From assembly GCA_017461235.1 (NCBI GenBank), contig JAFTYU010000029.1, forward strand, positions 1 to 49,510: DNA of 49,510 bases. Reading direction: 5' to 3'. The position numbers and the translations under genes are program-made. How positions within the stretch are numbered: position 1 is the first letter of the stretch; each line of letters starts with the position of its first letter. This DNA is from Clostridia bacterium. GTDB taxonomy: Bacteria; Bacillota; Clostridia; Oscillospirales; Acutalibacteraceae. Positions 11,939 to 33,937 of the stretch are shown in pieces. Below the pieces are notes generated by a model. It made no database searches. It was not told the DNA's origin and was given only the letters and a program-made list of their open reading frames with translations.

Positions 11939-13708
11939 ATGAGCCGGGGAGGAAAAACCTCTCTTAAAACCAAAGTCGGTGGGTTTGTATCTGAAGTAAA
12001 AACCCATTGGAAAACACCTGCAGAGGGTAACTATGTTCCTTATAAGGAATATAAGGACGTCGTTATCGGCGTAGGTGCCAACTATACAGGAACAAAAACA
12101 CTTGAATACATAGGTTTCTGGTCAAGCTGTTTCCTGATTATGCACCATTACAAATTGCCGTATCTTACATTCTCGGTTATAGGTCTTCTTAATATGCCAC
12201 TCGGTTATGTTTCGGCACTTATTTGGTGGTACGTATGTGATAACCTTGGCTTTTTACCGAAAAAGACTGAACGGAAAGTTTACCTGGCTTACGGGCTTAT
12301 GATGGCGTTTGGTATTGCGTCAATAATATTTGACTTTTCAAAGGTTTTTGACCAGTCGGGTTCTTTCATTACTATTCTCAACAGTTTTGAAGGTATGAAT
12401 GCCACGGCGTGCTTTAAGACGTTCGGAACACATTTCCTATATACCGGTTGGGTGGGCGCACGTAACATCTTCTGGCGTAAAAAGCTTATACCCAAATACG
12501 GCAGATATAAATACAGCCTTTATTGCGATGTTATCCCCAAGTGCGTAATGGTTATTCTTATCGGTTGGCTTCCCGTTTACAATATCGGCGATGTTGCAAC
12601 ACGTGTATGGGTCGCAAACCTTCTTTTTGCTACATATAACGTATTCGGTTTCGGTAATGTTCTTGAGCAATGCACGAAACTTATAAGCCCCAATTTACAG
12701 GAAAGAATTCTTGTTCGTAGTTATCCCGTAAAGCTTTCACATATTTTTAATTCCATTCTTGCCATTATTCTTCCTGCAATCGTAGGAATGCTTCGCCACG
12801 AATGGGCAGACATCAATTTCTACAGGTTTGTTATTCCCATAACCTTCTGCATTTCTGCTGCGTGTACAATGTACCTTTCGGGAAGAATTAAAGAGAGAAT
12901 ACCGCAACCGCCTATTGAAAAGAAGGTTCAGATTAAATTCTGGGACGGTATGTTGGGTGTTCTTAAAAACAAATATCTTCTTATAAATACAGTTGTTGGT
13001 CTTATTGACTCTCTCGGTAACGGTATGCTTCCGTTTGCAACTATTCTTTATTTCTACACATTCCGCCTGAGCGGTCTGCCTTATTCATTGTTAGTTGCGC
13101 TTATTTCCTTCGCAGGTACACCGCCCGACTTGTTGTCACCATATTTCCTTAAGAGATTCTCATATAAACAGATTATGATATTCTATCAGCTCAGCCGTGC
13201 AATAGGTAACGCAATTATAGCCGTTGCAATGTGGACTCTTGGCGATAATCTTGTTCTTTGCGGAACAATCTGTGTTGTTGTTCTTTTCTTTATGGAAATG
13301 ACTAAAACCGTTCCTACAACTGCAGGTCACGATATGAATATCCGTATCGGCGATTATCAGATGTATCTGTCAGGTGAGCGTCTTGAAAGCTTCGCAGGTA
13401 TATTTGGTTGGTTTACGGGCCCGATTACATCATTTGTAGGACTTATTATTCCCATTTTCCTGCTTAAGTACGGTTTTAACAGTAACTGGGAGATTCTTTT
13501 CTTTGACGGTTCGAGAAGCAATATAGTTGTTGTGCCGATTATCGTTGATGCAATCGGATTCTTCCTTATGACAATACCGTACCTTTTCTGGGATTACGAT
13601 AATAAGAAACAGAATATGGTTATGGAAGTTCTTAAACGACGTGCAGAAGTTACGGAACAGAAAGCCAAAGAAGAAGGCGTTTCCGTAGCAGGCGTATATA
13701 AAGGTTGA
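11939..13708 (+). CDS. large MFS-type membrane transporter
   Basis: A 589-residue polytopic protein with about twelve hydrophobic helices, a hydrophilic N-terminus of ~60 residues and a charged C-terminal tail (VLKRRAEVTEQKAKEEG). It looks like a divergent member of the GPH/MFS superfamily. No enzyme for a sugar lies next to it. Instead a membrane LRR protein follows after 14 bp and a zinc-ribbon membrane protein after that, so the three may work together at the membrane. The transported molecule cannot be inferred. Confidence 0.75.
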   Translation: MSRGGKTSLKTKVGGFVSEVKTHWKTPAEGNYVPYKEYKDVVIGVGANYTGTKTLEYIGFWSSCFLIMHHYKLPYLTFSVIGLLNMPLGYVSALIWWYVCDNLGFLPKKTERKVYLAYGLMMAFGIASIIFDFSKVFDQSGSFITILNSFEGMNATACFKTFGTHFLYTGWVGARNIFWRKKLIPKYGRYKYSLYCDVIPKCVMVILIGWLPVYNIGDVATRVWVANLLFATYNVFGFGNVLEQCTKLISPNLQERILVRSYPVKLSHIFNSILAIILPAIVGMLRHEWADINFYRFVIPITFCISAACTMYLSGRIKERIPQPPIEKKVQIKFWDGMLGVLKNKYLLINTVVGLIDSLGNGMLPFATILYFYTFRLSGLPYSLLVALISFAGTPPDLLSPYFLKRFSYKQIMIFYQLSRAIGNAIIAVAMWTLGDNLVLCGTICVVVLFFMEMTKTVPTTAGHDMNIRIGDYQMYLSGERLESFAGIFGWFTGPITSFVGLIIPIFLLKYGFNSNWEILFFDGSRSNIVVVPIIVDAIGFFLMTIPYLFWDYDNKKQNMVMEVLKRRAEVTEQKAKEEGVSVAGVYKG

Positions 13709-17850: not shown

Positions 17851-17893
17851 AAAACTCCGTGTTTCTCTCAAAATGAGAAACACGGAGTTTTTA
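17850..17893. terminator. strong bidirectional terminator
   Basis: A perfect 17-bp stem (17851-17867 with 17875-17891) flanked by A and T runs lies between two convergent operons and serves both. Confidence 0.92.
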
Positions 17894-19207
17894 TTGTATA
17901 ATATCTTCTAATTCATTATTAATATTATCTTTGTAATACGAATTGTCCGAAAGCTTTGCAAATTTATCACAACCAAAACTCATAAGGAATGATGCTGAAT
18001 TTTTATTAAGAGTTATATTTGAAACAAAAATTTCTGTTTCGGGAGCGTTACCGAAAGCCCCAAACATAAAATCCACACCATTGCAGATTTTGTTTTGCGT
18101 AATGCCTACCAGAGTCTTTAAATTATCAAAGCTTGCTTTTTCAATGTTTAGTTTTTCTGCCTTTTCTTCATCTGAAAGGGTAGATTCTTTTATGCTCTTA
18201 AGATTGCATTTAATTCTATTGCTTGTTTCGGTGCATTTTTTAGTTTCTTGATTTATTAAGTCTGTTAAAACATTGATAAGACCGAGCTTTTGCGAAATAT
18301 TAAGTTCCTTTGCATCTTTTATAATTGATTCCGTTGTTTTTTGCTCTAAAATCAATTTCAGGTCGAAAACCGTGTTTAGTTTTTTATAAACTGCATAGAA
18401 ATCTGCAAAGTCACGGGTAACTTCGGGTGATTGAAGGTATTGTTCTATTAATTCCGTTTCGGTTTCAATGCCCTTGCGGTCATAAAGGCACATTATTCTT
18501 GACAAATCTTCCCAACCGCGCGCCGTAACAAAGCGTTTACCGGCAGGTGTGTTTTCGATGTTATAAAAGCTGTTGCTTTTGATATCAAGATAGGTAATTA
18601 TTGCAGGGTGAACGTTGTTATTAACAGCGTATTCGCGCCATATTCCGTAATCAGGCTCAACGTCAATCTTCTTTATTCTGTCAAGGGTTGCAATGTCGTA
18701 TTCCCTTACCGATTTATTGTATTCAGGTGGATTGCCTGCGGTAATAATGACCCATCCTTCGGGTACCGTGTGCGAACCGAAGCTCTTGTATTGCAAAAAG
18801 CGAAGCATTGAAGGGGAGAGTGTCTCGGAAACACAGTTGATTTCATCTAAAAAAAGAATACCTTCTTTTTTACCTGTTTTTTCAATGTAATCATAAACTG
18901 ATGCGAGAATCTCACTCATAGTGTATTCTGAGACGTCGTATTCTTTGTCACCGAATTTCTTTTTTGTGATAAAAGGAAGACCTATAGCACTTTGCCTTGT
19001 GTGATGTGTCATAGAGTAAGACACGAGTCCTATGCCCATCTCGCTTGCTATTTGTTCCATAATCGCGGTTTTGCCTATACCGGGCGGACCATAAAGGAAA
19101 ACGGGACGTTGTTTTTCAACAGGTATAATAAAATTGCCGTTTTCGTCTTTTTCAAGGTAGGCGATAACCGTGTTTTTAATGTGTACGGTTGCATTTTTAA
19201 TATTCAT
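17891..19207 (-). CDS. MoxR-like AAA+ ATPase
   Basis: A 438-residue AAA+ ATPase of the AAA_5/MoxR type. Walker A is GPPGIGKTA (40-48), Walker B is GILFLDEIN with D121/E122, sensor 1 is in TAGNPPEYN (N159), and the arginine finger candidate is R177 in TLDRIKK. A helical lid and a C-terminal region of ~150 residues follow. MoxR ATPases typically work with VWA proteins as metal-insertion or complex-remodelling chaperones; here the VWA partner is the first gene of the same unit. The ATG follows GGATGA and starts four bases after the LRR gene stop. Confidence 0.9.
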   Translation of the reverse strand: MNIKNATVHIKNTVIAYLEKDENGNFIIPVEKQRPVFLYGPPGIGKTAIMEQIASEMGIGLVSYSMTHHTRQSAIGLPFITKKKFGDKEYDVSEYTMSEILASVYDYIEKTGKKEGILFLDEINCVSETLSPSMLRFLQYKSFGSHTVPEGWVIITAGNPPEYNKSVREYDIATLDRIKKIDVEPDYGIWREYAVNNNVHPAIITYLDIKSNSFYNIENTPAGKRFVTARGWEDLSRIMCLYDRKGIETETELIEQYLQSPEVTRDFADFYAVYKKLNTVFDLKLILEQKTTESIIKDAKELNISQKLGLINVLTDLINQETKKCTETSNRIKCNLKSIKESTLSDEEKAEKLNIEKASFDNLKTLVGITQNKICNGVDFMFGAFGNAPETEIFVSNITLNKNSASFLMSFGCDKFAKLSDNSYYKDNINNELEDIIQ

Positions 19208-19211
19208 ATAA

Positions 19212-20462
19212 TCATCCTATATCATTGAAAAAATTTTCGATTTCCGTAAATCCTGTTTTTTCTTTCTTTTTTGTTAACATTTGTTGCAAATTACCGAATT
19301 TGTTTTTTGATGCCGTTTCATAAAGTGTTGTGTATTCATCTGTTGAGAGTGTGCAGTTTTCGATTATGTATTTTAAAGCATCCTCTTCATTTTTCTCTAC
19401 AGTGAACATTGCTGCATAAAAGACTTTTTCATTAAGTGCTTTTTTATATAAAATTTCTGCTTCGGAGTTTAAGTCTGTGGGATAAGTCAGTCTGTAAAGA
19501 GCGATTAAGGGCTTTTCGTGTTCATCGGCTCTTTCAAATTGTTCATCGTATTTTTTGAAATTAAATCTGCCATGTTCAATAAGAAGTTCGCTTCTGTCCG
19601 TGTAGCTGTAATAACGCTCGCTTATAAATAGCTTTATGCCTTGTTCCGACAAAGAAAGGATATGTGCAAAACAGGTTTTATCTGCATTTCTTCTTTTATA
19701 ATCAAGTGTGTTTTCAAAGCCGAGTGCGAGTTTTTTTATTCCCTGCGGGACTATAACCGTGGGGCACAAAGGGTATTCTGCTTTCTGCATAAAGCTCGAA
19801 GAAAACATCGTTCCCGTAATTGTCGGCAAAACGCATGGCGTTTCGGGAAAAACAGCCGCGCCTATGTAATCGGGATTACCGTTAAATATAACATTTGTTA
19901 ATGCATTGCAATGGTCAAAGCATTTGTCGCCGATGTAAGAAAGTGCTTTGGGGAAGGTGAGTGTTTTCAGACTAAAACACCGCTTGAAGGCCTTGTCCTT
20001 AATTGTTTTGATATTTTCGGAAAAAACAATTTCTTTTAAATTGATGCAACCGCTGAAGGCACTTTCTTCAATTGTTTCAATGCTGTCAGGCAAAACAATT
20101 TTTTCAATGGAAACACAGTTTTCAAACGTGTTTTGGGGTATTGCTTTTAATCCTTGCGGCAATCGTATTGTTTTTAATTTTTTACAGTCTTTAAAAACAG
20201 AAGTGCCTAAAGCTTTTACAGAAGGGGGAAGGTCGATTTTTTTGAGTGCGGTGCAGTTTGTAAAAGCCGAATCACCGATGCTTTTTAGGTTGTTGTGGAG
20301 AGTGATGTTTTCAAGATTTGAACAACCACTAAAGGCGGAGTGTTCAATTTTTTTAACCGTAAAACACAATTCCACACTTTTCAGAGTGTGGTTGAAAGCA
20401 AATTTTCCGTTTTTAATTACAGGCGCAAAGCACTTTATGGCTTTAACAGCGGAACGTTTCAA
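19212..20462 (-). CDS. cytosolic BspA-type LRR protein
   Basis: A 416-residue protein without signal peptide or membrane segment. Residues ~22-205 are about eight 23-residue LRR_5 repeats (for example ALKKIDLPPSVKALGTSVF and SIEKIVLPDSIETIEESAF). The rest (~230-416) is mainly helical and charged, with helix pairs reminiscent of ankyrin-type repeats, ending in FTEIENFFNDIG. The start codon is TTG at 20462, with GGGAGAGA inside the end of the VWA gene. It lies between the VWA and AAA+ genes with four-base gaps on each side. Most BspA-type LRR proteins are secreted, so a cytosolic one inside a MoxR-VWA unit suggests a recognition subunit. Function is inferred. Confidence 0.85.
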   Translation of the reverse strand: MKRSAVKAIKCFAPVIKNGKFAFNHTLKSVELCFTVKKIEHSAFSGCSNLENITLHNNLKSIGDSAFTNCTALKKIDLPPSVKALGTSVFKDCKKLKTIRLPQGLKAIPQNTFENCVSIEKIVLPDSIETIEESAFSGCINLKEIVFSENIKTIKDKAFKRCFSLKTLTFPKALSYIGDKCFDHCNALTNVIFNGNPDYIGAAVFPETPCVLPTITGTMFSSSFMQKAEYPLCPTVIVPQGIKKLALGFENTLDYKRRNADKTCFAHILSLSEQGIKLFISERYYSYTDRSELLIEHGRFNFKKYDEQFERADEHEKPLIALYRLTYPTDLNSEAEILYKKALNEKVFYAAMFTVEKNEEDALKYIIENCTLSTDEYTTLYETASKNKFGNLQQMLTKKKEKTGFTEIENFFNDIG

Positions 20463-20466
20463 AAAA

Positions 20467-21870
20467 TTATCTCTCCCGAAGGTCGTTTTTATCTATATAC
20501 AGGGGCGTTGCCCATACAGGCAGACGGCTTTTATCAAAGCCGTTATCGTGTATAATAAATGCATTTTTATATGACGGTGTTTTTTCGGGATATTTTCCGT
20601 CACCGTCAGTAAAATAAATTATACCGTTAAAATGTTTCTTATTTGTTAAATTGTCAAATATATTGTCTGCGTAATTAAACACGGGTGTAAAATCAGTGCC
20701 GCCGAAACCGTGAAGTGTGATATTGCTCATATAAGCTTCAAGCTCCCGTTGGCTTTTAATAACGGCAATATCTTTGATTTCATTGTCACACTGAATAATA
20801 TGTATCTCAAAATCTTTTTTGAAAAAGTCTGTTGCCTTTAAAATTGAACAGGTCTTTTTGATGAAGCCTTCAACAAGGGGACCCTTAACCGAGCCCGATG
20901 TATCAATAGCAATAATCAGTTTTATGAGCTTGTTGTTTTCTATATATTCCAAAGGCTCTATAAGGGGTATATTGTCATATAGGCGAAGACCGTATGTGTA
21001 GTAGATGTAGTCGAATTCATCATCGTTTATTTCAAGTGCTTCATTCTCTTGCAAAAAACTTGCAAGCAAATCCGCGTAATTGAACTTTTCCTGTGTCACA
21101 CTTTTTAAAATCTGCAGACCGTTGCCCGATGATATGCCGTACTGACCGGCGAATAATGCAGAATCCCGTAAAATCTGATTTGTAGTTTCCTTCCATTGAT
21201 TTTGAAAATCACTATGTGAGTTTGCAACATCCGAAAGTTTTTCTCCGTTTTCCTGATACTGCCCCTGACGGTCATCCTGCATTTTGTAAATAGAGCGCGC
21301 TTCAACTTCAATGGTGTCATCGTCATCTTCCGCAGAATAGAGAGCGTTTTTGTACCAGATGTTATGATTATCAGCGTAAAACAACTCTTTGTAAATATCA
21401 ATCCGGGGGTTGTCGGCTTTTTCATCAAGGAGATAGTAATATATATTTTCCGCCGTGAAGCTTTTTATTTCTTGTGAAAGGTCGGCAATAACCTTGCTCT
21501 CAACGTCTGATTTTTCTGTTTTCGAGCAATGAATATTCAAATCATTAATTATTTTTTCAACACATATATCACAGGCAAGATCCCATAACTTTTTGTTCTT
21601 GAAGTTGGTTGACCATATATGTAAAAACATACAGTGCAACAGGGAATGTAAAACAAGTCTTGTAACCTCGCTGTTGCTTTTGGTGTATTTGCGGCAGATA
21701 TCCGCAGGCTCAAAGAAAAACGTGCATCCGTCAATGCAGTTGCAGTTTTCTTCCGTATAGGAGATACTCTCAATTGCCCTGATAAAGGATGGTAACTCTC
21801 TGCAAATATCTTTTTTTGTTTGTTCAATTATTCTCAATGCAATTGAAGCCGTTTTATTTGTTTCGGGCAT
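20467..21870 (-). CDS. VWA protein with degenerate metallopeptidase-like domain (DUF2201-like)
   Basis: A 467-residue protein. The N-terminal domain (~1-130) has the shape of the DUF2201 putative metallopeptidase, but the zinc motif reads H75-S-L-L-H79 with a further H84, so the catalytic Glu of HExxH is Ser. An acidic linker (~150-225) leads to a C-terminal VWA domain with intact MIDAS: D323/S325/S327 in DTSGS, T392 in GGTDF and D421 in FTDGDG. The VWA domain should bind a divalent metal and partners. AAGGATG precedes ATG 21870. It is the first gene of the VWA-LRR-MoxR unit. Confidence 0.88.
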   Translation of the reverse strand: MPETNKTASIALRIIEQTKKDICRELPSFIRAIESISYTEENCNCIDGCTFFFEPADICRKYTKSNSEVTRLVLHSLLHCMFLHIWSTNFKNKKLWDLACDICVEKIINDLNIHCSKTEKSDVESKVIADLSQEIKSFTAENIYYYLLDEKADNPRIDIYKELFYADNHNIWYKNALYSAEDDDDTIEVEARSIYKMQDDRQGQYQENGEKLSDVANSHSDFQNQWKETTNQILRDSALFAGQYGISSGNGLQILKSVTQEKFNYADLLASFLQENEALEINDDEFDYIYYTYGLRLYDNIPLIEPLEYIENNKLIKLIIAIDTSGSVKGPLVEGFIKKTCSILKATDFFKKDFEIHIIQCDNEIKDIAVIKSQRELEAYMSNITLHGFGGTDFTPVFNYADNIFDNLTNKKHFNGIIYFTDGDGKYPEKTPSYKNAFIIHDNGFDKSRLPVWATPLYIDKNDLRER

Positions 21871-28774: not shown

Positions 28775-28907
28775 CTATTTTATTCGGCGATAAAAACAAA
28801 CAACAAGCCTTCTTTTTGTGAAATGCTACAAAGATGAAGATCTGGTGAGATTTTTAATATTTTCGTTCGTTTAATAAGTGAAAAGATATTTTAAAGGAGG
28901 TTGTATT

Positions 28908-29765
28908 ATGACAACAAAATCCAAATTAAAGAGAATATTAGCCTTTGTTATTGCTGTGATGACATTGATTGTATCTGTGTCGGCAGTAAATGCTGTGCCG
29001 GAACAGGAGAAAAACGCTGTTGAGCAAAAACAGACGGACATTCAGGTGAACACACCTTCGAATACTATTACTACATATTTCCACGAGGAAACAGGTACTT
29101 TTATTGTAAAAGGTACGGGTGTTGTAAATGGTTTGTATCCCATAGATTGGGATGCTGTGTGGCCTTGGGTGACATCAGCTGTGAATAACACCACAATAAA
29201 ACACGTTGTTATCGGCGAAGGTATAACGAATATCACAAACAGCTTTAACGGGTTAGAGAATCTTGTGAGTGTCGCCATTCCCGAAGGTGTTACAAATATT
29301 TCAAACAGTTTTATGGAATGTACAAGTCTTACAAGTGTTGATTTCCCTGAATCGCTCAAGGAAATTGCTTACTTTTCTTTTGCATCGTGTACCAGCCTTA
29401 AAAATATTACTTTCAAAAACAAGGTCAGAATTTTTGGCGATAGAATAGGTGCACCGTTTTATGGTTGCTCCGCACTGGCGGAATTAAATTTACCCGGTGG
29501 ATCATCCTTGCAGAACGCCTTTTCTGATTGCAGCTCTTTGAAAAACGTATATATCGGCAAAGAGGGTGCCACTATCTATCCACCTGATGAACCAATGGAT
29601 ATTGAAGACAACTGCCTGTATTGCTTTGACGATTGTCATCCTGACCTTAAGCTTCACTACGTTGAAGGTACGTTGGAGTGTTATGATTTCGTGATCTTGT
29701 GGGATGAGGTAATTGTTGAAAATATGCCTGAAAAATCACCCTTACTGTTGAAAAGAATGGCATGA
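28908..29765 (+). CDS. secreted LRR protein, N-terminal part of a frameshifted LRR-FN3 gene
   Basis: A 285-residue frame starting at ATG 28908, seven bases after AAAGGAGG. A signal peptide (KRILAFVIAVMTLIVSVSAVNA) is followed by a BspA-type region: a beta stretch with FIVKGTG, then about five LRR_5 repeats (SVAIPEGVTNISNSFMECTS). The last ~11 codons after the PEK at ~29727 are out of frame. If the A5 run at 29731-29735 had six A, the frame would continue PEKITLTVEKNGMNVNWDG into the FN3 frame below. The gene is therefore one LRR-FN3 protein of about 530 residues split by a one-base deletion, or a sequencing error. Confidence 0.85.
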   Translation: MTTKSKLKRILAFVIAVMTLIVSVSAVNAVPEQEKNAVEQKQTDIQVNTPSNTITTYFHEETGTFIVKGTGVVNGLYPIDWDAVWPWVTSAVNNTTIKHVVIGEGITNITNSFNGLENLVSVAIPEGVTNISNSFMECTSLTSVDFPESLKEIAYFSFASCTSLKNITFKNKVRIFGDRIGAPFYGCSALAELNLPGGSSLQNAFSDCSSLKNVYIGKEGATIYPPDEPMDIEDNCLYCFDDCHPDLKLHYVEGTLECYDFVILWDEVIVENMPEKSPLLLKRMA

Positions 29766-30499
29766 ACGTAAACTGGGACGGTAAAACAGCTGCAGGAGTG
29801 TACCATATTTATCGCAAAGCCAAAGGTGATAAGAAGTGGACTAAAATTGCCGATACAGAACTGACTTACTATGTTGATGGCACGGTTGAAAGCGGTATCG
29901 AGTATGCATATCTTATTAAGGTGGATGAAGATACAGATACTTTAACATCATCATATACAAGGTTTATGGGGGCTCCCGTTATTAAATCTGCTACACAGAC
30001 CACAACGGGTATAAATATCACATGGGATAAGGTTGGTGGCGCAACTAAGTACAGAATTTACCGCAAGACAGGGTATAACGGAAAATGGACTAAACTTGCC
30101 GACGTTACAGGTACAACCTACAAGGACAATAAAGCAAGCAGTAATGTGCGTTATTATTACACCGTAAGGGCTTTCGGTAAAACGGGTTATAGCGATTGTG
30201 ACAAATCACACCCCTATGCAATCTATCTTAAAACGCCTAAAATAACTTCTGTTAAAAAAGTAAGCAATGGTGTTAGTATCGATTGGGAAAAAGTAGGTTG
30301 TAGTGGTTACTATGTTTACAGAAAAGAAGCCGGTGGTAAATGGATAGTGATAAGCAGACCGGCGTCAAGTACCACAAATTATGTGGATAAATCCGCTAAA
30401 AAGGGCGTTCAGTATTATTACACCGTAAGATCATATGCGTGGGATATGAGCGAGTGTATAAAGAGCGAATACAAGTCCGCCGTGAAATTCAAGTATTAA
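29762..30499 (+). CDS. FN3-repeat protein, C-terminal part of the frameshifted LRR-FN3 gene
   Basis: A 245-residue frame with three fibronectin type III modules, each with a GVYHIYRKA- or YRIYRKTG-like strand, KWTKIADV and a YYYTVR strand near the end. It has no signal peptide and no good ribosome binding site, and the first FN3 strand (KITLTVEKNGMNVNW) begins upstream of its ATG. This shows it is the continuation of the preceding frame. The domain order matches the intact gene at 30545. No sortase motif is visible. Confidence 0.85.
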   Translation: MNVNWDGKTAAGVYHIYRKAKGDKKWTKIADTELTYYVDGTVESGIEYAYLIKVDEDTDTLTSSYTRFMGAPVIKSATQTTTGINITWDKVGGATKYRIYRKTGYNGKWTKLADVTGTTYKDNKASSNVRYYYTVRAFGKTGYSDCDKSHPYAIYLKTPKITSVKKVSNGVSIDWEKVGCSGYYVYRKEAGGKWIVISRPASSTTNYVDKSAKKGVQYYYTVRSYAWDMSECIKSEYKSAVKFKY

Positions 30500-30544
30500 A
30501 AAATGAAACGTAGAAAAGAAATATTGTTATTGGAGGGGCGTGTA

Positions 30545-33500
30545 ATGAAAAGAATTATAAAGAGTAGTTTATCAATCGTTCTCGTTCTGACCATAGTGTT
30601 GAGTTCTTCAATAGCAGGGCTCGGGAAACTTGATTTCAGTGGACTGTTTGCGGTTAAAGCTAAGGCAGCGGATAGCGGAGTTTGTGGCGAAAATGCCGTG
30701 TGGACATTTTCCGGTGATACCATGACCATAAGCGGTACAGGTGTAATTACCCATGATCCCGATATGCAGAAACGGTTATACTATGATACTAAAACTATCG
30801 TTATAGAAGAGGGTATAACCGGTATAGGTGATTATGCTTTTGGTAAAAATTGGAATTTAAATTCTGTATTAATTCCCGCAACTGTTACAACAGTGGGCTT
30901 AAATGCTTTCATTGAGTCCAAAAATCTTAAAGAGATTCATATAACTGATTTGGCGGCATGGTGTAACATTGATTTCAAAAACGAAAAAGCCAATCCTTTG
31001 ATAAGAGCAGACAATTTGTATCTTAACGGAGAGTTGGTTGAAGGTAGGGTTATAATTCCTGCGGGCGCTTTCAGAATAGCTTCATATGCTCTGAATTGCC
31101 CCAATATAACGTCCGTTGTTATTCCTTACGGCGTGACGGAAATCTGCGATTTTGCTTTTGCACATAGCGAAAACCTTGTTTCTGTTACTATACCCGATAG
31201 TGTTGTAACCATAGGAAATTCGGCATTTTATTACTGTAAAAAGCTTTCGGAAATTACTATTCCTGACAGCGTTACAACTATTGGTAAGTCTGTTTTTTGT
31301 AACTGCTACGCTCTGAAAAGTGTTACGCTTTCAAAAAATATTACTGTCATTGCCGAAGACACTTTCAGTAATTGCGGTAGTCTTGAAACAATCACGATTC
31401 CCGATAGTGTAAAAAGCATAGACGAGTTTGCTTTTTCGTATTGCACAAGTCTTACGAATATTAATTTCTGTGAAGGTTTGGATAGCATAGGTTCTTGTGC
31501 TTTTTATAATTGCATAAGTCTTACATCCGTTGTATTACCTGATGGAATGAAAAGTATTGGTAGTTCTGCATTTGAAAGCTGCCGAAATCTTAATTCAATC
31601 ACCATTCCGTATAGTGTAACATACATTGGAGTGTCAAGCTTTTATGGAAGTAAATATTATTTTGACATAAGTAACTGGGAACAAGGGTTTCTTTATATAG
31701 ACAATCATCTTGTTAGGGTAAATAGTGAGAATACAGGTGATTGTGAAATAAGAGATGGTACAAAAACAATTGCAGGAGATGCATTCTCTTACTGCAGAAA
31801 AATTACCTCAATCAAAATCCCTGATAGCGTGGTCAGTATAGGAGACGGTGCTTTCGAATATTGTGAAAGTATAGAGACAATTACGCTTCCTGACAGTGTA
31901 ACATATCTTGGCAGATCAGCTTTTAAAGATTGTGTTAATTTAAGCTCTGTAGAATTATCCGACAGTGTAACTAGTATCGGATCTTATGCATTCAGCAATT
32001 GTACGAGTCTTGAAACAGTTACTATTCCTGACAGTGTAACAAGTATAAGCTCATATGCATTCAAAGGATGCACAAGTCTTGTATCTGTCACGTTGCCGGA
32101 CACTCTTACTGATATTGACAAATATGTTTTTGAAGACAGTCTTTACTATGACAATGGTGATAATTGGGAAAATGATGTTCTTTACATCGGTAATCATCTT
32201 ATAGAAGCAAAAACCTCCTTGTACGGTCAATATGATATAAGGGATGGTACAATATCAATTGCGGCATCTGCTTTTGATAATTGTGCTGAGTTGATTTCTG
32301 TTAAAATCCCTGATAGCGTAACCAATATAGGTGAAACTGCTTTTCTGGATTGCATCAAGCTTAAATCGATAACAATTCCCGGCAACGTATCGACCATAGG
32401 TAAGTATGCTTTTGCGGATTGCGTTGACCTTGTATCGGTTACGGTATCGGATGGTGTAATGAGTATTGGTGAAAGTGCTTTCAAAAATTGTGATTTGCTA
32501 TACTCAATTACAATACCTGATAGCGTAACAACCATTGAAGATTTTGCTTTGGGTTATGATAACGGTACGGTTCAAATTAAGGATTTTGTCGTTTGCGGAA
32601 AACCGGGCACTATTGCAGAAACTTATGCAAATGAAAACGGTTTTACTTTCGTTGATTCGGCGCATACCCATATATCAACCGATTGGAAAACAATTAAGGA
32701 ATCTACGGTAGATATCGATGGCGTGAAAATAAAGGAGTGTACTGTTTGTAAAACTGCACTTGAAACAGAGATTATTCCGCAACTTACACCCGCGGCACCG
32801 ATGGTGAGTGTTAGGACTTCTACTCGTAGTATTTCATTACGATGGAAAAAGGTTTCAGGTGCGGATGAGTATATTGTATATCGTCGAGAATACGAACCAG
32901 AAGCCAAAAAATGGAGCGGTTGGACGAGACTTGAAGATGGTTTGACAGAATCAGGCGATTATGATGATGTTTACTATTATGATAAAAATTACGATATTAA
33001 TCATTATGATGATTACAGTGCAAAATCAGGTACGTATTATATCTATACGGTAAGGGCAGCTAACGAAGTAGGGTGCGGTCCATATACATCAACCGAAAAA
33101 CTTTATTTCCTTGAAGCACCTAAGATAACCTCCCTTGAACATGATTGTAACAATATAACCATAAAATGGAAAAAGGTTGACGGAACAAAAGCGTATATCG
33201 TGTATCGTGCGAACATGCATAACTATGGTAACGGATGGCAAAAAATCGATACTACCAAAGGCACGTCGTACGTTGATAAAAGTGCTAAGGTTGGAGAGCA
33301 CTATAAATATACGGTAAGGTCATATAATGGTTCATACATATCGTGGTTTTATGATTATAACGAGATAACAATGCTTACTTCACCGAAGCTTAAGAGCGTT
33401 TCATGTTCTAAGGATGGTGCAACGGTTAAGTGGGATAAGGTGAAGGGCGCAGATAGTTATTATGTGTATCGCAGAGAGTATGATGCTAAGGCTAAAAAGT

Positions 33501-33937
33501 GGAGCGGTTGGACTCGAATTGGTGATATTTATAATACATCATATGTAGATAAAACTGCAAAATCAGGTACATATTATATCTACACCATAAAAGCAAAGGC
33601 GGGGGCGTGGAATCATAGTGATTACAGCTCATACGACAAAACCGGTCTCAAACTTTATTTCCTTGCCACACCGTCACTTAAGAGTGCTACAAGTACGAAA
33701 TCGGGCGTGAAGCTTCAATGGAACAAAATAAGCGGTGCCACCGGCTACATTGTATATCGCAAAACGGGTAATGGCAGTTGGACTAAAATTGCAACAGTCA
33801 AGGGTAGCGGAAAAACTGTCTATCTTGACAAAAGCGCCAAGAAGGGGATAACCTACACCTATACCGTAAGAGCTTATTACGGTTCATCAAAAAGCAGTTA
33901 CAATGCAAAAGGGTTATCAATAAAAGACAAATATTAA
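30545..33937 (+). CDS. large secreted LRR-FN3 surface protein
   Basis: A 1130-residue protein. Start ATG 30545, seven bases after GGAGGGG. Signal peptide ~1-40, then a BspA-type opening (CGENAVWTFSGDTMTISGTG), roughly 25 LRR_5 repeats of ~23 residues with the core IPDSVTSIGSYAFSNCTSL, two of them followed by NWE-containing insertions, a HTH-WKTIKESTVDIDG / CTVCKT spacer (~725-765), and four FN3 modules (~770-1130). There is no LPXTG anchor, SLH domain or membrane tail, so how it is retained is unclear. Host or microbe surface binding is the usual suggestion for such proteins. It lies 45 bp after the frameshifted paralogue. Confidence 0.88.
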   Translation: MKRIIKSSLSIVLVLTIVLSSSIAGLGKLDFSGLFAVKAKAADSGVCGENAVWTFSGDTMTISGTGVITHDPDMQKRLYYDTKTIVIEEGITGIGDYAFGKNWNLNSVLIPATVTTVGLNAFIESKNLKEIHITDLAAWCNIDFKNEKANPLIRADNLYLNGELVEGRVIIPAGAFRIASYALNCPNITSVVIPYGVTEICDFAFAHSENLVSVTIPDSVVTIGNSAFYYCKKLSEITIPDSVTTIGKSVFCNCYALKSVTLSKNITVIAEDTFSNCGSLETITIPDSVKSIDEFAFSYCTSLTNINFCEGLDSIGSCAFYNCISLTSVVLPDGMKSIGSSAFESCRNLNSITIPYSVTYIGVSSFYGSKYYFDISNWEQGFLYIDNHLVRVNSENTGDCEIRDGTKTIAGDAFSYCRKITSIKIPDSVVSIGDGAFEYCESIETITLPDSVTYLGRSAFKDCVNLSSVELSDSVTSIGSYAFSNCTSLETVTIPDSVTSISSYAFKGCTSLVSVTLPDTLTDIDKYVFEDSLYYDNGDNWENDVLYIGNHLIEAKTSLYGQYDIRDGTISIAASAFDNCAELISVKIPDSVTNIGETAFLDCIKLKSITIPGNVSTIGKYAFADCVDLVSVTVSDGVMSIGESAFKNCDLLYSITIPDSVTTIEDFALGYDNGTVQIKDFVVCGKPGTIAETYANENGFTFVDSAHTHISTDWKTIKESTVDIDGVKIKECTVCKTALETEIIPQLTPAAPMVSVRTSTRSISLRWKKVSGADEYIVYRREYEPEAKKWSGWTRLEDGLTESGDYDDVYYYDKNYDINHYDDYSAKSGTYYIYTVRAANEVGCGPYTSTEKLYFLEAPKITSLEHDCNNITIKWKKVDGTKAYIVYRANMHNYGNGWQKIDTTKGTSYVDKSAKVGEHYKYTVRSYNGSYISWFYDYNEITMLTSPKLKSVSCSKDGATVKWDKVKGADSYYVYRREYDAKAKKWSGWTRIGDIYNTSYVDKTAKSGTYYIYTIKAKAGAWNHSDYSSYDKTGLKLYFLATPSLKSATSTKSGVKLQWNKISGATGYIVYRKTGNGSWTKIATVKGSGKTVYLDKSAKKGITYTYTVRAYYGSSKSSYNAKGLSIKDKY

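Follow-up and report, generated by a model that had tools for sequence, protein, structure and literature searches.

A conserved gene module in Clostridia joins a MoxR–VWA pair to a putative LRR recognition subunit

We analysed a 49,510-nucleotide stretch of a Clostridia bacterium of the family Acutalibacteraceae (contig JAFTYU010000029.1 of GenBank assembly GCA_017461235.1; hereafter the window), in which three adjacent genes encode a von Willebrand factor A (VWA) protein, a leucine-rich repeat (LRR) protein and a MoxR-like AAA+ ATPase. As far as gene order and sequence tell, this three-gene unit is a conserved genetic module in some Clostridia, with LRR as the steady partner of VWA among its genes. 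MoxR–VWA machinery as such is already known; the dedicated LRR-type third component appears to be the new part. We lean towards the view that the unit is a three-subunit, ATP-driven MoxR–VWA remodelling machine, whose LRR protein is a putative recognition or adaptor subunit that selects the target.

Results

An LRR-type gene accompanies the MoxR–VWA pair

A search of 200 family genomes with the window MoxR at 1e-10 gave matches in 21, 15 of which carry a close-clade MoxR, while the other six have only a class that is about 25% identical. A profile of 18 MoxR sequences (alignment A1), searched at 1e-40, matched in 46 of 394 genomes of the order and in 7 of 398 genomes of the phylum, the window's genome being counted in each set. 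The distribution (15/200, 46/394 and 7/398) is therefore patchy. We read 62 close-clade loci, most of them from one order and a few from elsewhere in the phylum, and kept two divergent loci (L094 and L095) apart; three partial MoxR matches (G289, G405 and G483) were left out of the counts. When called by the full-length profile of the third protein, which also matches ordinary LRR_5 proteins, a same-strand LRR-type gene is found no more than 6 kb from MoxR at 53 of the 62 close-clade loci, and at 53 of the 56 loci at which a VWA gene adjoins MoxR. At L099 it lies 8.6 kb away. Related genomes that mostly carry the pair without the LRR gene would have spoken against the original prediction of an LRR-sensing AAA+ machine; the outcome is favourable to it. 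The third genes at 41 of 54 loci also match the LRR part of the window protein and those at 42 match its C-terminal domain, only L035 passing neither limit. Moreover, a genus-level search for VWA genes (PF13203, 1e-5) detected 15 loci with this VWA type, three of which (L138, L142 and L143) repeat loci already counted. Fourteen show an LRR gene in a short flank and the fifteenth does so once the flank is widened.

The order of the three genes varies. Plain LRR-VWA-MoxR is the commonest arrangement (37 loci), the others being VWA-LRR-MoxR or VWA-MoxR-LRR. Thus, the placement of the LRR gene between its two partners, which the original prediction had emphasized, holds for the window but is a minority order in general. 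On a quick MoxR tree we count at least seven changes of gene order with the linkage retained, although this tree has 17 open forks and its well-supported branches alone force fewer changes. At six loci MoxR has no partner gene next to it. Four of the genomes concerned, two of which belong to one genus, have the VWA gene elsewhere with an LRR gene beside it (4/4); in the other two there was no VWA match. Since the link between LRR and VWA persists when MoxR is elsewhere, the gene arrangement suggests that the VWA protein, and not MoxR, is the direct partner of the LRR protein.

In genomes rich in BspA-type LRR genes such a gene might adjoin the pair by chance or hitch-hiking, and the window's genome has 79 LRR_5 matches. 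We counted LRR_5 matches at 1e-5 in 33 genomes. Four of these (G119, G477, G554 and G318) have a single match, and in each it is the operon gene. By a rough estimate, chance would place an LRR_5 gene beside the unit in 0.84 of the 33 genomes if 4 gene slots are allowed and in 2.31 if 12 are; because these genomes were picked from carriers of the unit, the observed figure to compare with it is the 53 of 62 loci. In addition, the C-terminal domain of the LRR protein is almost confined to genomes with this MoxR: its profile (A3) matches in 40 of the order's 394 genomes, and all but one of these 40 belong to the 46 that have the MoxR (39 genomes). The exception, G551, has a weak match in a frame of 1237 amino acids, with neither MoxR nor VWA present in the 16 kb inspected. 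Among the seven MoxR genomes without a match to the domain, two (G332 and G506) have a divergent MoxR and no LRR gene, in two (G432 and G484) the domain is undetected in the LRR partner, two (G289 and G405) have a partial MoxR match and one (G248) has its match on a 4.8-kb contig. The C-terminal domain and third-component profiles were built from these loci and therefore find their members by construction, so that absence elsewhere is the informative part; the loci are also related by descent, and their counts are not independent trials, a dependence which Fisher p-values calculated from them leave out of account. The LRR_5 counts, the chance expectation and the distribution of the C-terminal domain together refute chance adjacency, which we regard as extremely improbable.

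Layout of the unit in the window

The three genes lie head to tail on the minus strand and are transcribed in the order VWA (20467–21870, 467 amino acids), LRR (19212–20462, 416 amino acids) and MoxR (17891–19207, 438 amino acids). Four bases separate each stop codon from the next start, just as had been noted originally. The claim that translation of the LRR protein begins at a TTG within the VWA gene is wrong, however, because the VWA stop codon TAA (20469–20467) precedes the TTG (20462–20460). A GGGAGAG ahead of the TTG is the likely ribosome-binding site, and together the three elements occupy 20460–20479 of the minus strand. The same layout of stop and TTG at the junction of VWA and LRR is kept in L034, a metagenome-assembled genome of the Oscillospiraceae. 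For all three genes the ratio of nonsynonymous to synonymous substitution (dN/dS) relative to the nearest relative is 0.07–0.15, as calculated from one pair with a dS of about 1.25–1.3.

The LRR protein is predicted to be cytosolic

The LRR protein matches PF13306 (LRR_5) with 178 bits (E 7e-53), and BspA-type repeats are present at residues ~20–205. They are followed by a linker and a C-terminal helical domain (residues ~300–416). Because its highest 19-residue hydropathy is only 0.99, the protein is predicted to lack a signal peptide or membrane helix and to be cytosolic, as judged by a hydropathy scan and not by a signal-peptide predictor. The cytosolic location claimed for it is thus supported by sequence. 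The LRR profile finds three more proteins in the window, and these peak at 2.2–2.9 and have a signal or membrane segment. The unit's protein thus shares its repeat family with BspA-type surface proteins but differs from the three in the window in lacking such a segment and in having a C-terminal domain of its own. Eight of 66 third-component candidates pass the hydropathy limit; sorted by reading, four do so in the C-terminal domain, two near over-extended starts, one is an opposite-strand LRR gene and one lies at a contig end.

The last ~115 residues (19215–19559, minus strand; the first row of alignment A3 used in the genome search) align between the window protein and shorter LRR proteins of other families. 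Among solved structures the nearest to this profile are ankyrins, with weak similarity (best E 0.0016), and the domain, which is predicted to be helical, is perhaps ankyrin-like. Many of the proteins end in an FDL/YDL/FEL/FVL-like tail, found at 38 of 54 loci compared with 36 of 1409 other open reading frames (ORFs), a background which includes unselected open frames. The ends YKL and YVL are seen as well, in proteins of G957 (L149). The length of the LRR part varies widely between members, and in the operon LRR proteins scanned with Pfam no enzymatic domain was named. LRR partners are fused to BRCT in L057 and L058 and to DUF4132 in L038, and the BRCT-bearing region of L058 also matches the PADLOC model PDC-S48. 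In Leptospira, WGR and DUF4132 domains have been described in LRR proteins (PMC11674859).

At the divergent MoxR–VWA loci L094 and L095 other proteins occupy the place of the LRR protein. The one in L095 has sub-threshold ankyrin matches and ends in YDL, while the two in L094 do not end in a YDL-type tail. A comparison of the C-terminal domain profile with the ankyrin-like L095 protein gave no significant match.

The VWA partner has kept its MIDAS and lost a catalytic glutamate

The VWA protein combines a degenerate DUF2201_N putative metallopeptidase domain (PF13203; 20.3, E 5e-4, below the cut-off of 23.2) with a DUF2201 VWA domain (PF09967; 46.7 bits, E 4e-12, cut-off 26.4), at which the protein ends, with no effector domain fused to it. 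Its metal ion-dependent adhesion site (MIDAS) is complete, which bears out the original claim: DxSxS is found in all 56 close-clade VWA proteins, TDG in 55 of the 56, and the threonine in all 56 (40 by pattern, and the other 16 read individually). In the metallopeptidase part, the window protein carries HxxxHxxxxH without the glutamate of HExxH. This catalytic residue is replaced in all 55 readable close-clade proteins, which is not the pattern of an active metallopeptidase. A search of solved structures with the VWA profile yielded no useful relative.

Canonical DUF2201–MoxR pairs of related genomes, which also occur in phages (PHROG 1314 and 1297), are homologous and likewise have adjacent VWA and MoxR genes. 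In contrast to the unit described here, six of ten such sister pairs retain HE..H (HQ is found in three and HL in one), and no LRR match was obtained for any of the ten in the stretches covered, several of which have short flanks or lie at a contig edge. One viral pair also has the glutamate. Since the residue is lost in 55 of 55 close-clade proteins, while 6 of 10 pairs without an LRR match keep it, its loss and the LRR partner go together in the close clade by this sequence comparison. A further difference is an SNF2-type helicase gene (1158–1316 amino acids) upstream of the sister pairs with HExxH at all three loci tested (L052, L053 and L055); these loci are possibly a separate conflict system.

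MoxR is an AAA+ ATPase

The window MoxR scores above the Pfam cut-offs for PF00004 (AAA) and PF07728 (AAA_5). In alignment A1, the columns which we take to be Walker A, Walker B and the sensor region are invariant or near-invariant, in agreement with the ATPase motifs read earlier. The C-terminal region is less conserved, the identity to L034 being 94% over residues 1–257 and 74% over the remainder. The bpMoxR model matches weakly (21.1, cut-off 27). Among solved structures the relatives are mostly generic AAA+ proteins, with midasin as the top phmmer match.

Neighbourhood, phages and plasmids

Defence genes had been proposed as something to look for around the unit, and none was found by PADLOC at 1e-5 among ten window neighbours. 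Clustering of 548 flanking ORFs, whose families were not compared with defence models, gave a widest family of 11 out of 64 loci, and a recurrent fourth gene was rejected. The wider clusters resemble ABC-transporter, MATE-like and response-regulator families, an assignment made by reading the sequences alone. A phage origin was rejected as well: an IMG/VR scan with the window protein gave no match, and one with A1 a single relative of 26% identity. The seven closest matches in a phage collection (L117–L123, MT83xxxx) are unverified 'Bacteriophage sp.' scaffolds of 4–15 kb from human faecal samples from Mexico. Six of the seven carry an LRR-type gene, one of these short and weak, and the scaffolds are probably bacterial DNA. 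A plasmid search returned 15 records, all of them distant.

Elsewhere in the window, two LRR_5 proteins with signal-like N-termini flank a 245-amino-acid protein (28878–33937), and both this protein and the LRR protein of 1144 amino acids match the GH85_C domain. A 589-amino-acid membrane-like protein without a Pfam match (11939–13708) has a relative in L039 that likewise lies near a MoxR–VWA–LRR unit.

Discussion

In the machine that we favour, MoxR would form the motor ring, on which the VWA protein would sit in the manner of NorQD or CbbQO. The VWA protein, through its inactivated metallopeptidase domain and its MIDAS, would hold the LRR protein by the C-terminal domain of the latter and, in most members, by a [FY]-x-[LF] tail at its C-terminus. 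Target choice would fall to the LRR surface, and the energy of ATP hydrolysis would be used to pull on or twist this target or the LRR subunit itself. That the LRR protein may be held by the VWA protein, either presenting a target or being the target, is proposed by analogy with CbbQO and NorQD, since published MoxR–VWA pairs bind their targets through the MIDAS (PMC4660213; PMC13036017). With CbbQ as the motor of CbbQO, the VWA protein of this pair uses its MIDAS together with an acidic residue to bind rubisco (PMC4660213). In NorQD a finger of the VWA protein enters the ring, and twisting of the VWA protein has been proposed (PMC13036017). Both systems likewise pair a MoxR motor with a MIDAS-containing VWA protein that binds the target. 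However, they are two-component systems which act on a known enzyme (PMC4660213; PMC13036017), whereas here a third, LRR-type subunit is conserved.

A parallel in composition is provided by the MoxR–VWA ternary conflict systems (VMAP, iSTAND, FtsH and beta-propeller types: Kaur et al., 2020, PMC7159879; iSTAND2 and TERNS3: PMC8195603), which also combine MoxR and VWA with a system-specific third component and are also patchily distributed. They differ in that their third components are others than the LRR_5 repeats and unnamed C-terminal domain described here, the window VWA has no fused effector, and they are described mostly in multicellular prokaryotes (PMC7159879; PMC8195603), whereas our unit is found in Clostridia. 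In these papers, the word LRR occurs only in a reference of PMC7159879, and leucine-rich repeat in two places of PMC8195603, which concern another system and a reference; the words leucine, LRR and Clostridia are absent from PMC10907252. An LRR third component of a MoxR–VWA system was not found in the literature, also when approached via BspA, DUF2201 or COG3864, with most subscription journals outside the coverage, and within that scope the presumption that such a machine is undescribed stands. E. coli YehI-YehL-YehP (DUF4132, MoxR and VWA) resembles the unit in that MoxR and VWA lie near a DUF4132 gene, compare the LRR–DUF4132 fusion of L038. Membership in the yeh system was rejected, since YehL and YehP show no significant match to the close-clade MoxR and VWA profiles.

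A recognition role of the LRR protein fits these findings, and a client role could hold equally well. MoxR–VWA would then be a dedicated chaperone for the assembly, activation or dismantling of the LRR protein, comparable to CbbQO with rubisco and NorQD with NO reductase. The close linkage and the conserved C-terminal tail suit a dedicated client just as well, a C-terminal motif is also present in those rubiscos on which CbbQO acts (PMC4660213), and at split loci the LRR gene stays with VWA and not with MoxR. Against a client role, Pfam names no enzymatic domain in the operon LRR proteins scanned, LRR length is highly variable, and in the divergent relative L095 an ankyrin-like protein occupies the same position. 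Overall, we consider this alternative possible but rather unlikely. We think it quite improbable that the unit is an anti-phage system like VMAP or iSTAND with the LRR protein as the invader sensor, even though the distribution is patchy, the neighbourhoods change between loci, some LRR proteins are fused to BRCT or DUF4132, and the helicases beside the sister pairs have parts which match several defence helicase models. None of the unit's three proteins in the window has an effector domain by Pfam, PADLOC gives MoxR weak ATPase-core matches only and nothing in the neighbours, the single relative obtained from IMG/VR is distant, and the LRR gene is under purifying rather than diversifying selection in the one pair compared.

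Some observations weigh against the machine that we favour. The C-terminal tail is absent, by the pattern used, at 16 of the 54 loci, including the window, L034 and L036. Members of the largest clade have a short LRR part, with a single Pfam stretch of 50–70 residues in L062 and L101, which is small for a sensor. At 13 of the 54 loci the third gene is recognized by the full-length profile and not by the window LRR part, and in G476 the LRR_5 matches all lie outside the operon. Finally, L100 has VWA and MoxR with no LRR gene in the 19.5 kb read, and L041 (genome G047) has no LRR gene nearby. A lone LRR gene with the C-terminal domain lies elsewhere in G047 (L148, 5639–6994) and may act in trans for L041.

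The module might also be an intracellular surveillance device and a modular bacterial counterpart of NLR-type receptors, with an LRR or ankyrin-like sensor, a pseudo-peptidase VWA coupler and an AAA+ motor as separate proteins, the sensor being swapped between lineages and the C-terminal docking tail kept; we consider this idea speculative and unlikely. To our knowledge, MoxR–VWA pairs are widespread and most of them are without a known target. A dedicated LRR partner would be a handle on how these targets are chosen, and would suggest what BspA-type LRR proteins in the cytosol may be used for. It would also allow the conversion of a peptidase domain into an adaptor to be tested, in a module that is small, so that its reconstitution should be direct.

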